From Phoenix dactylifera (lineage: Eukaryota; Streptophyta; Magnoliopsida; Arecales; Arecaceae), in assembly GCF_009389715.1 (NCBI RefSeq), contig NW_024067686.1, forward strand, positions 712,501-776,500: a stretch of DNA of 64,000 bases, in the 5' to 3' direction. The notes below the pieces were generated by a model. It ran no database searches, was not told the DNA's origin, and saw nothing but the letters and a program-made list of their open reading frames with translations. The position numbers and the translations under genes were made by a program. Of this stretch, positions 52,531 to 56,900 are shown piece after piece (the stretch's first letter is position 1; every line of letters starts with the position of its first letter).

Positions 52531-53509
52531 TGTCAGAGTGGGGGATCTCTCCTGCGTCCTTCGGCGGGAGTATAAGCCAGGACCGGACTGTGCTTGGATT
52601 TGATGCTTTGGTCTTCATCCGAGGGTAGTACTATTTTTATGGAAGGTGGTCTGGGATCGCCTACCGATGAGAGCAGTGCTTAGTGGACGTGGTTTGAGGA
52701 TTTTCTCAGTATGCGAGGTGTGTGATGTTGACGAGACGGTAGACCATGTGATGTTTCAGTGCACACGGGCAAGGATGCAATGGCAGGTGGCGAGATTCCC
52801 GTAGGGGGCTTCGTGCCAGCGGGACCAGTTCTTACTGGCCATCTGCCGATGGTCTGGTACGCCATTGTTACGCCAAGAGGCTATCAGAGCGACCTGCACA
52901 ACCTACCAGATTTGGCTGGCAAGGAATGCTCGAACTTTTGGTGAGTATAGATTGTCGCCGAGGCTCGTGGTGGAGAGCGCCCGAGTGTAGGCGGCGGAAA
53001 TTAGTCATATCTCATCCTTAGAAGGGCCTTTGATAGCTCGGGATATTTGGGGCTCCCATTCTACTCAGGCAGTACCCCGTAAGATATTCTTCACCTAGGA
53101 GCCCCCATCCCCGAGTTTTCTCAAGGTCAATTTTGATGAGTTCGTCTCGAATGGAGGTATGAGGGGAGGCGCGAGTTTTGTTATCAGGGACCCGGACGCC
53201 ATGGTGGTGGCAACAGGCGGTTATCAGCTATTTGACATCTCCGTGCCTGGTGCGGAGCTGAGGGCTGCCTAGGCGGGCTTTTGACACGCCCAGCTTGAGT
53301 TACGAGCCAGCTCAGTCATCTTGGATGGTGACTCGGATACAGTCATCAGTTGGATCCAGGGGGTTAGAGAGGTGCCGGCGGCAATCACCCATTGCTTCGT
53401 GACATCTAGACAATGACGAGGCATGGAGGTGCCTTTTAGGCCAAGCATGTATTTCATGAAGCTAATGGAGCTGCGGATTGGGTGGCCGCCGATGTAGCCA
53501 GCCATGTTG
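52531..53509 (+). pseudogene. LINE (L1-type) 3' part: RT zinc region and RNase H, first segment
   Basis: The frame from about 52637 reads LWKVVWDRLPMRAVL, then a C-x2-C...H-x4-C motif (CEVC...HVMFQC) typical of the region after LINE RT. Next is an RNase H domain with Asp in KVNFDEFV, Glu in GAELRAA and Asp in ILDGDSDTVI. Several stops interrupt it, so it is inactive. It is 5'-truncated, which is usual for LINEs, and lies next to copia sequence. It is broken at 53509 by a CACTA element and resumes at 56757. Confidence 0.85.
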
Positions 53510-53879
53510 CACTACAAAAGAAAGGATATGTCCCGGCGGTTTTTTTGGTCTCTACCGACGCTTTTAAGCGTCGGCGAATTTCCAGCCCACGCACCCCAAA
53601 GCATGGGTCAGACGTCGGGTAGGTGGGCGTGGGTCCGATTTTTGCCGACGCGAATAGAAAGCGTCGGCAGAAACAGGGCTTTCCCGACGCTAATAGAAGC
53701 ATCGGCAAAAACGACATTCGCCGACGCTTTAAAGTGTCAGGAAAGCCCAAAGCATTCCCAGTTTTGGGTTTTCGCCGATGCTTTAAAGCGTCGGCGTAGG
53801 CGTGCCATAACTTTTTTTTACTAACGCTTTAAAGCTTCGGGATTGCTATTTTTGAAAAAAAAATAAAAATACGAATATA

Positions 53880-54636
53880 AATTAAAGCCATATCAACCTG
53901 TGCTCGGATTATGAGGATGTATGCATTCCTAGCGGCACCATTTAACACTGAATCTGCATCGTCATGCCTTAGGAGCTTAAGAGCCTCCTCCTCTTGCAAT
54001 GCAAAGACCTTAAGAGCATAACACAATGGGCATGTAAGATGAAGTTGAACAAGAAAAAATGTATAGACTTAAATTATCTCTACCCAACCACAGTTAATAC
54101 TCTTCTTATGAAGATATTAAACAAAATGACACAGGAAATCTTTTAGACAGCGTTCAACTGACGTTCCTCACTGTAAGTTCTACTCAAATCTTGATTGTAG
54201 TTAGATCTTCAAATGGAACCTGATTGCATCTCAACAGGGCAACAATATGCGGTGTGGCAAAAACATATAACATAGTAATATTAAGTAAAAACTAACATTT
54301 TGAAATAATGAATCAATTTGGACAAGGAAATTGATAAGGAAGCTTGGGCATATATACTTTCAGGCAAACATAATACATGAAACAAGATAAGGTATAATTT
54401 CTGCCACCATGTAAACTGAAAGGTTATTGTAATGTAAGACCTGTGGTGCAGAATCGGCACCAGCAGAGACAGCAGCCTGTGATTCCTTTAACACAGTGAA
54501 CCAATCCTTTTGCTTACGTGCTTCATTACACTTGGCCAAATGGGTCTGGAGAGCATGCACTTGTGAGAAGTCATTAGAGCTGGTTTCCTTTCGTGATAGC
54601 TTGTAATGGTGAATTGCCTTCTCAGCTTCTCCCAGT
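53880..54636 (-). pseudogene. Captured TPR-protein fragment (TTL-like), two exons
   Basis: One exon (54636-54441, between a CAG acceptor and CAG/GTCTTA donor) reads LGEAEKAIHHYKLSR...HLAKCNEARKQKDWF...AAVSAGADSAPQ. The next piece (about 54012-53880) reads VFALQEEEALKLLRHDDADSV and AYILIIRAQVDMAL. The order and wording match the TPR region of plant TPR-thioredoxin-like (TTL) proteins as I remember them. The fragment has intron sequence between exons, so it was copied from genomic DNA. It has no start or end of its own. Confidence 0.7.
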
Positions 54637-55011
54637 CTGTGAAATATGTGCAGAAATATCAAGTTTTGTTTAAATAAGGCTATGGAAGAAGTAAATTATG
54701 AGGAAAGATGCCACCCTTCCTTTGAGTTTAGTACTCCACATGGAAGAAGATCACTTAGAATATAAGCCAATCATAATTAAATCAATATGTAAATAAGAAC
54801 CTAGTGAGTACCTTCAGCTTACGCAGAGACCCAGAGATTTCCTCTATCAAAAGAACCTGAAGATGATCAAAGCACATATTAGAGGTTCTAAGCAATTTAA
54901 AACAATCAATTCAAAATTCACAAGAATCCCCCTTTTTTTTAGCAAAACAGAGAGAAGGACCACAATACATAAGAGTTCCAGATGTTTGGAGCACTTAAGA
55001 AGCTTCATTAC

Positions 55012-55081
55012 CTTAGGCATTTCAAAGCCAAGTAGCTCAATTTTCCACTGAACATAAGCTCCTTCAGGAACACTAGAAGGC
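55012..55081 (-). pseudogene. Captured FKBP-isomerase exon (PAS1-like)
   Basis: A single exon between an AG acceptor and AAG/GTAATG donor encodes PSSVPEGAYVQWKIELLGF followed by EMPK. This is the end of an FKBP domain of the plant PASTICCINO1 type, where VPxGAxVQWEIELLGFE is conserved. A second splice-bounded piece at about 54813-54857 is open but unassigned. Only one domain edge is present, so it has no isomerase activity. Confidence 0.65.
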
Positions 55082-55158
55082 CTGTTCATGAAATCTCATT
55101 AGTATTTTCAAGTGTTTTGTTCAGAAACCAAGATAGCCAATTGGTTTAGAAAATTGAC

Positions 55159-55460
55159 CTTGTAAACAAGTTCCAAACAAGGTCTGTAACAGAGTGTTTA
55201 AGCCGGCCACAAACAGTAATGTCTGGATCACCTGAGCTTTCTCATCCTAAAGCAATAAAAGTGGTTTCACGTACAATTTTTTTTGAAAACAAAAGCTAAA
55301 CGAACCATCAACCTCATGGATCATGCATATTTGTGTAATTAAGTCATACATTTCCTCCACCCATCTGAGGAACAAGAGCAAATGATAACAGTGGTGCCAA
55401 GCATAACCAGGTAGTGCTGGAAACCGAGAAGGATAGCCTCCGCTGCATCGAAATTTCGCC
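55159..55460 (-). pseudogene. Captured nucleobase-ascorbate transporter (NAT) fragment
   Basis: Two pieces follow each other. The first (about 55460-55352) reads EAILLGFQHYLVMLGTTVII, then after a small frameshift ALVPQMGGGN before a GTATGA donor. The second (55246-55159, TAG acceptor, CAAG/GTCAAT donor) reads DEKAQVIQTLLFVAGLNTLL and continues QTLFGT. These are the first conserved helices of plant NAT/NCS2 permeases. The frameshift and missing remainder make it non-functional. Confidence 0.8.
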
Positions 55461-55822
55461 ATTAAGCCAAACAGGTGACGCTAACAGCCAAAAACCCACA
55501 CCAGATGGAAAACAAAGTAATGAAACCCTCAAAAGCAGAAAAAGGAAGAACATTAAATAAATCCCACTGAATTAGCAACAAAAGACCAAATCTAGTAGGA
55601 GCACCTACCCAGATAAGAGAGTAATAATACTTCAACTAGATACAAGCGGCACATATACGAACATTTATTTTCATATTAGTAATCAAGAAGCATATTAAAG
55701 ATACAAAGAGAGTCAAGCAGGTCTCGAACGAGTAAACTAAATTCAAACAAATAAAAGTTAAAAAAAGAGAGGAAACAATCAGTTCTTATACAGCAAACAC
55801 AATATAAAATAGCAAAAATTTG

Positions 55823-55865
<43 letters not shown>

Positions 55866-55879
55866 GGTGGTTTTGGGCT

Positions 55880-56425
55880 CACGCCATGGAGGAGGACTGG
55901 TTTCCTCGTCAACCCGCGCCAGGTAGCCATCATTGATGCCGTAGGCGGAGGCGCGCACCACTGTGTGGACGGACCCGTGGACGCCGCGCGGCGGGAAACG
56001 ACAGAATGAGACGGCGAGCTCGGCAGCGCCGGGGGACTCGATCATGGGGAACATGAGTCCCTGGGGGCCGAGATCAAGGGCCTTCTTGGCCCAGGCGGCG
56101 GAGAGCTCTGGAAGGCGGAGGATGGCCGGGGTGCGGGCGGCGGCGAGGGCGAGGAGGCAGGGGAGGGCCTCCGCGATGCCGCCAGAGCCGTGCTCCATGT
56201 CGACGACCACGTAGTCGTAGCCGGCAAGGCCGGCGATCTCGGCGAGGGTCGGGGAGGAGCGCAGGAGGAAGAGGCCGTAGAGGGTCTCGCCGGCGATGAG
56301 GCGGGACTTGAGGATCTGCGGTTCGAGGGAGAGGGGGGCGAAGTCGGGATCCAAGGAGGCGGCGAAGAGGTGGGCGAAGATATCATCGCCGGAGCCGTTC
56401 TGCTTCTTGAATCTGGAGGGGGTTA
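55880..56425 (-). pseudogene. Captured HpcH/HpaI-type aldolase N-terminal fragment
   Basis: A GC-rich open frame reads SRLIAGETLYGLFLLRSSPT, LAGYDYVVVDMEHG and LGPQGLMFPMIESP, ending near HTVVRASAYGI. These are hallmarks of the HpcH/HpaI aldolase family (class II, metal-dependent; the Glu of MIES and Asp of VVVDMEHG region are typical). About 160 residues, the first half of the fold, are present. Family text stops around 55890, before a GA-repeat (55827-55861). It is the 5'-most captured piece in transcript order. Confidence 0.8.
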
Positions 56426-56753
56426 GGGAGGGGGGGGCGATGATGATGAGAGAGAGAGAGAAGACGAGGAATGGACGAGGAATGGGGATGATGATCCCCT
56501 CTTAAAAAACTCTGGAATGGGTTGAGGGTGGAGGGCGGTGGCCGGGAAAACGGAAGGAGAGAGAGAGGGCTCGTTTCCGACGACGCTTTTTAGCGTCGTC
56601 TTATCCGGCGACTACACCGACGCTTATTAGCGTCGTCCTTTGCCGACGCTTTTTTACAAGCGTCCGCAAATTTTGACGCTAGACCAAATATTGCCGACGC
56701 TTGTGAAAAGTGTCGGCAAAAAAGCGTCGGTAAAACCGACTTTTCCTGTAGTG

Positions 56754-56900
56754 TTGGTGGTATCCTGTAGGCTTGGGATAGGGAGTTGCCCCGGGTGCTC
56801 TGAGATATTCTGTTTTCTGATTTTATTGGGTGTATTCGTACTCGTCAGGTATGAGTTATCTATCTTAACAAAAAAAATAAAAAATATAAAAATAAAAACT
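56754..56900 (+). pseudogene. LINE 3' end, second segment with A-rich tail
   Basis: With the CACTA element and one TTG copy removed, the LINE RNase H frame continues without a shift from WVAADVASHV into GGIL (stop TAG in place of an expected W codon), AWDRELPRVLRDILF and a terminal TGA. An A-rich tail (AACAAAAAAAATAAAAAATA) starts near 56867, as expected at a LINE 3' end. Confidence 0.8.

Follow-up and report, generated by a model that had tools for sequence, protein, structure and literature searches.

How does a transposon of little more than three kilobases come to carry pieces of several host genes, all facing the same way? The question is raised by a CACTA transposon of the date palm (Phoenix dactylifera), which lies in a 64,000-nucleotide stretch of assembly GCF_009389715.1 (contig NW_024067686.1, positions 712,501 to 776,500), hereafter the window. 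The complete element spans 3,244 bp (window positions 53510-56753). With a probability of about 0.92, we read it as a non-autonomous Pack-CACTA element that was built stepwise, moved in trans and is now decaying neutrally. For comparison, 36 loci (L009-L044) were fetched from genome matches to the element; throughout, L-numbers denote loci fetched for comparison and C-numbers denote contigs of the assembly, which comprises 773,078,369 bases in 2,391 contigs.

The termini of the element, CACTACAAAAGAAAG and CACTACAGGAAAAG, have their first 7 bp (CACTACA) in common, as expected of CACTA terminal inverted repeats, but are imperfect beyond; a preliminary description, drawn from the letters of the window, had called them perfect. 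The 3-bp target-site duplication TTG that it reported is exact at the two boundaries. Subterminal repeats of the CCGACGCTT type, also reported there, occur in both orientations at both ends, in agreement with the definition of CACTA elements by such repeats of 10-20 bp given in parts of a Chenopodium study (PMC8978399). Allowing at most one mismatch, CCGACGCTTT has 17 matches in the window, 13 of them within the element, against a mean of 2.96 in whole-window shuffles, none of which reached 17 (0/100). A search with the flanks joined without the element gave 2,181 candidates, of which the best 40 were scored; one of these is the window itself, and 39 of the 40 span the junction with 76-85% identity. 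Judged by their sequence, these matches are empty paralogous sites of a repeat family, one member of which holds the element. The flanks (53200-53509 and 56757-56860) contain a frame that presumably resembles the tail of an RNase H-type reverse transcriptase element; a Pfam scan of the short joined flank piece returned no family. Element and target site comprise the following features, in window coordinates:

53507..53509, no strand: left target-site duplication TTG (matching duplication; empty sites)
53510..53883, no strand: left end with terminal repeat, subterminal repeats and an A-rich inner edge ending AAATACGAATATAAATT
53884..54787, minus strand: TTL-like TPR gene fragment, exons 54636-54441 and 54008-53898 with the intervening intron
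54780..54866, minus strand: NOP53 remnant, exon 54856-54812 (45 nt)
54861..55167, minus strand: PAS1-like FKBP gene fragment, exon 55081-55012
55162..55901, minus strand: NAT (PF00860) permease gene fragment, end of exon 1 at 55901-55883, exon 2 at 55442-55350 and part of exon 3 from 55246
55903..56363, minus strand: intronless HpcH/HpaI aldolase gene fragment (PF03328, E 1.6e-21)
56364..56569, minus strand: stretch common to aldolase-bearing family copies, absent at the corresponding position in the C17 aldolase gene
56574..56753, no strand: right end with subterminal repeats and terminal repeat
56754..56756, no strand: right target-site duplication TTG (matching duplication; empty sites)

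The length of the element is explained by its two ends, the five gene pieces and a single stretch of 206 bp. From the right end, the pieces derive from genes for an aldolase, a NAT permease, a PAS1-like FKBP, NOP53 and a TTL-like TPR protein. Their sources lie elsewhere in the same genome, as is typical of Pack-TYPE elements carrying host fragments, and occupy different contigs, namely C17, C7, C3, C1 and C561/C358, respectively. The preliminary description had named four of these genes, correctly, and overlooked the NOP53 exon (54812-54856); the minus-strand direction that it gave for all pieces is true of all five. It would have been refuted by pieces lying contiguously in one host locus, and the search for source loci placed them apart.

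The individual matches are close. The NAT piece aligns to C7 (L019) with 98.9% identity over 736 aligned sites plus 4 gap events of 41 bp; with its exons joined and XX written at the frameshift, it scores PF00860 at E 1e-8, compared to E 5.3e-14 for the source. The TTL piece aligns to C561 (L017) with 97.45% identity over 903 aligned sites plus 2 gap events of 43 bp, with C358 (L018) as an alternative source, and the joined exons of the source match TPR models with E-values down to 3.6e-31. The NOP53 piece is 96.6% identical over 87 bp to C1:7706807-7706893 (L046), where the neighbouring exons, together with the following exon read in L020, score PF07767 at 2.5e-21. The PAS1 piece is 98.7% identical over 307 bp to C3:23683932-23684238 (L047). 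We regard C3 as the likely source of this piece because no other match is better and because TPR exons follow further along: an Arabidopsis PAS1 query finds its best matches beyond the piece, at C3:23688289 and 23689190 (E 1.2e-4 and 6e-8). Two exons of L042, when joined, match the FKBP model at no better than E 0.0022, which falls short of its cut-off. For the aldolase piece, the closest gene is an intronless frame of 369 codons on C17 (L029), with 94.6% identity over 461 bp. Searches of Pfam and PDB with the short PAS1 and TTL pieces alone returned nothing convincing, and both pieces were confirmed via their source loci; a match of TTL to a kinetochore protein (E 0.0081) was taken as chance.

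The stretches of TTL and NAT that align to their sources include intron sequence, which indicates capture from genomic DNA, as first proposed from the retained introns. Kimura two-parameter (K2P) distances to the sources are 0.011 for NAT (736 sites), 0.013 for PAS1 (307), 0.026 for TTL (903), 0.035 for NOP53 (87) and 0.057 for the aldolase (461). The probability that five independent pieces fall in one direction by chance is 2 x (1/2)^5 = 1/16, so that the uniform direction alone is not significant.

The whole mosaic recurs in the genome, where the search for other copies suggested in the preliminary description yielded three more continuous ones and one interrupted. The four continuous copies (the window, L009, L010 and L011) are flanked by the duplications TTG, ATG, TGT and GCA, respectively, and the window copy differs from the other three by K2P 0.019-0.024; L011 is without about 140 bp of the aldolase. 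The fifth copy lies on C8; parts of its interior are deleted, and an interruption of about 10.6 kb separates its two halves. The presence of several copies at different sites demonstrates the mobility that is characteristic of Pack-TYPE elements. These halves are L015 (C8:25387500-25391200) and L016 (C8:25400000-25402900), and window bases 55638-55643 match on both sides of the interruption, like a target duplication. Two pairs among the fetched loci, L025/L028 and L021/L022, are more than 99% alike across 4-4.6 kb with their flanks included, and are better taken for haplotype contigs or segmental duplications than for insertions of their own.

A scan of 20 open reading frame (ORF) and exon translations of the element or its edges against Pfam (87 ORFs listed) found no transposase, and the element appears to hold no recognisable transposase coding, in keeping with a Pack-TYPE element. 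Its movement would have required CACTA transposase made elsewhere to act on its ends. Transposase_21-type transposase is abundant in the genome (best 150 of 534 candidates scored), and a transposase lies 4.7 kb inside two of 40 left-end matches (best 40 of 525 candidates).

Relatives with fewer pieces suggest the order in which the cargo was acquired. Relatives with matches to the aldolase and the right end only include L030-L032, L034, L035, L039 and L040, and, within the fetched stretches, L024, L026, L037, L041 and L044. Five loci that were tested against all five genes (L020, L021, L023, L027 and L033) carry NOP53, PAS1 and aldolase pieces without NAT or TTL, their NAT matches being just simple repeats of 29-34 bp. 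Given these simpler relatives, with the aldolase alone or with NOP53-PAS1-aldolase, the simplest order that the sequences suggest is aldolase, then NOP53 and PAS1, then NAT and TTL. L012 and L014 carry TTL, PAS1, NAT and aldolase pieces without NOP53. Genome-wide matches number at least 17 for NAT, 14 for TTL, 40 for NOP53-PAS1 and 79 for the aldolase family, all of them lower bounds that include some sources or gene relatives. Pfam found no family in five unassigned ORFs of the relatives L012, L020 and L040. In L012-L014, about 1.4 kb of other sequence separates TTL from PAS1 (L012 2257-3700, C1:28468900-28474700), and three ORFs of this stretch gave no Pfam match. One aldolase-bearing relative, L031 (C11:13100500-13105500), has an open frame of 365 codons that scores PF03328 at E 1.3e-40.

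The junctions, read by eye, and the same relatives bear on how the pieces entered. PAS1 and NAT share 6 bp (GTAAAC) at their junction, TTL and NOP53 share about 5 bp and NOP53 and PAS1 share 3 bp; there are no shared bases between the left end and TTL, and none between NAT and the aldolase, where 1 nt is added. In L023, which is without NAT, the PAS1 and aldolase parts kept in the window copy are 304 bp apart; 73 bp of this intervening sequence match PAS1 and 157 bp match the aldolase, so that NAT replaced older cargo consisting of PAS1, aldolase and unassigned sequence. Similarly, the NOP53 piece measures about 0.7 kb in L020 and L021; the window copy retains 87 bp of it, adjoining TTL, and TTL occupies the place where the relatives have most of the NOP53 piece. 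We propose that the cargo was probably captured stepwise by break repair with host genes as filler: a break inside a copy would have been repaired with DNA of an unrelated gene as template or filler, the pieces entering singly, and such repair may often have replaced cargo that was already present.

The alternative that survives best is fusion of neighbouring insertions, in which a gene piece caught between two copies is carried along once these have lost their inner ends and transpose as a single unit. Such a neighbour-fusion model has reportedly been put forward for Arabidopsis Pack-CACTA elements. In its favour, parts of two studies describe fusion for Pack-TYPE elements, among them CACTA elements, including composites of the AB and BB kinds (PMC8903248; PMC13317346). 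Against it, the family ends are absent from both strands of all six source stretches searched (L017, L018, L019, L029, L046 and L047; 3.7-9.3 kb each, L047 with 1,599 masked bases), although excision could have erased such insertions; the same search did find the ends in the element loci L009, L020 and L031. Moreover, at the inner junctions that were read, 0-6 bp are shared and older cargo has given way to new, rather than end remnants being left. We consider fusion a less likely rival route for this element.

Much less probable is a new chimeric host gene, in which a minus-strand aldolase-NAT-PAS1-NOP53-TTL transcript would be expressed and useful. The preliminary description had allowed for one joined transcript, and part of this holds under a single splice model, in which the NAT piece ends at a cryptic donor. 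AG acceptors and GT donors are kept in the window copy, L009 and L011, the donor of NAT exon 1 being lost in L010, and aldolase and NAT form a single open frame in three of the four copies (L009, L010 and L011). In these three, however, PAS1 and NOP53 are out of frame with the aldolase and NAT, and TTL, which again shares their frame, is preceded by a stop. The window copy has lost 5 bp of NAT exon 2, which shifts the remainder of NAT out of frame, and it has a stop before PAS1. No copy reads aldolase, NAT and PAS1 in one open frame, and the whole chain is thus encoded by none. In all four copies, the aldolase frame also lacks an ATG ahead of its conserved part.

Nor does the aldolase stretch carry a significant signal of selection. 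Across 18 copies (L011, L020, L033 and L041, being short or deleted, were left out), with the consensus as ancestor and a CpG-aware expectation, 72 of 186 distinct changes are synonymous, compared to 63.9 expected (z 1.27), whereas the intact aldolase gene L045 has 34 compared to 16.9 expected (z 5.0). By this measure the stretch has changed in the way that neutrality would predict. Among the four continuous copies, transitions amount, per site and copy, to 0.0289 at CpG, 0.0106 at CHG, 0.0085 at CHH and 0.0020 at A/T, a pattern as expected for methylated DNA. The copies would accordingly be methylated, silent and drifting neutrally, and any minus-strand transcript would amount to a chimera that is nonsense or non-coding, instead of encoding a protein of five parts. 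Finally, joint capture of the pieces from one host locus, or a mosaic made by the assembly, has next to no probability: nothing was found in its favour, the sources are on separate contigs, and the four continuous copies with different flanking duplications would require identical misassembly on several contigs.

Several points weigh against a Pack-CACTA element built stepwise, moved in trans and decaying neutrally. An autonomous partner is unproven: it was looked for at C10 (L048) and C14 (L052) and shown at neither, and at L052, one of the two transposase-adjoining left ends, no right end was found. The divergence from the sources does not strictly follow the suggested order, PAS1 being nearer its source than the supposedly later TTL. 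Six other places match the PAS1 piece with 97-98% identity over the same stretch; we take them as family copies, since C176 also has an aldolase match near its PAS1 match. No origin was found for the stretch 56364-56569. As to selection, the aldolase test relies on an 18-copy sample and a consensus ancestor, L031 alone leans towards selection (z 1.87), and the raw ratio of nonsynonymous to synonymous change (pN/pS) among the aldolase copies is 0.40-0.69; selection on the ground of raw values below 1 was rejected as not significant under the CpG-aware expectation. Methylation and silencing of the copies are inferred from the mutation pattern only.

The inner boundary of the left end is the least expected detail: one A/T-rich edge adjoins many interiors. 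A search with positions 53640-53960 gave 345 candidates, and among the best 40 that were scored, eight continue into TTL, 25 come to an end 0-18 bp beyond 53883 (including second pieces) and seven stop earlier. The sequence that follows the boundary falls into nine similarity clusters in 27 copies, comprising 20 of the 25 (fetched for this purpose), the window and six earlier loci; the comparison includes L053-L072, L020, L021, L023, L027 and window position 53883. AAATACGAATGTAAATT, with up to about 12 bp more, marks the one place where the left end stops and beyond which the interiors differ; the TTL junction and one NOP53 junction lie directly at AAATT. As some clusters share their first 6-12 bases, the independent junctions are fewer than nine, and as the 20 copies were chosen for reaching the boundary, the comparison is a lead, not a test. 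On this footing, it is possible, if doubtful, that the family has a capture hot spot at the A/T-rich edge. If so, breaks would recur there and the cargo would be swapped repeatedly, much as a cassette is changed behind a cap that stays in place, and short stretches of shared sequence would join the host-gene filler.

Passages of the report on Tgm-Express1 (PMC1947982), a CACTA element in the wp allele of soybean, describe intron and exon parts of five unrelated genes, spliced as cassette exons into a single transcript. This splicing implies one orientation for the spliced pieces, and with it the preliminary claim that a uniform direction had not been described loses its support, even though the word "orientation" was not found in the searched passages of that paper. 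Both are CACTA elements with exon and intron pieces of five host genes and retained splice sites; they differ in genes and host, and Tgm-Express1 occupies an intron of a gene and has yielded cloned chimeric RNAs, whereas the date palm element sits in a repeat and is known here from DNA alone. In the relevant parts of a study of Arabidopsis, rice and maize (PMC8903248), the Pack-CACTA elements holding the most distinct loci are those of maize; compared to the Pack-CACTA and Pack-TYPE elements treated there, relatives in the same genome here suggest the capture order, and the left ends can be seen to share an inner edge. Parts of the Chenopodium study (PMC8978399) likewise describe captured host-gene pieces within CACTA elements with subterminal repeats, there within the 5' region that precedes ORF 1 of the element itself, whereas the date palm element has no recognisable transposase and consists mostly of captured DNA. 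A literature search found no report of the present element among the titles and abstract starts listed, which does not show it to be unpublished. Altogether, the element is a well-preserved example of a known gene-capturing kind, of which Tgm-Express1 already shows five spliced fragments.

How plant DNA transposons acquire gene pieces is still argued. Here, one genome holds the sources, the intermediates and the end product, and the order, the junctions and the replaced DNA can be read directly. Such capture may also matter for annotation: at least 26 of at least 79 genomic matches to the aldolase domain (PF03328) lie in transposon copies, within the fetched element loci, and could inflate gene-family counts.
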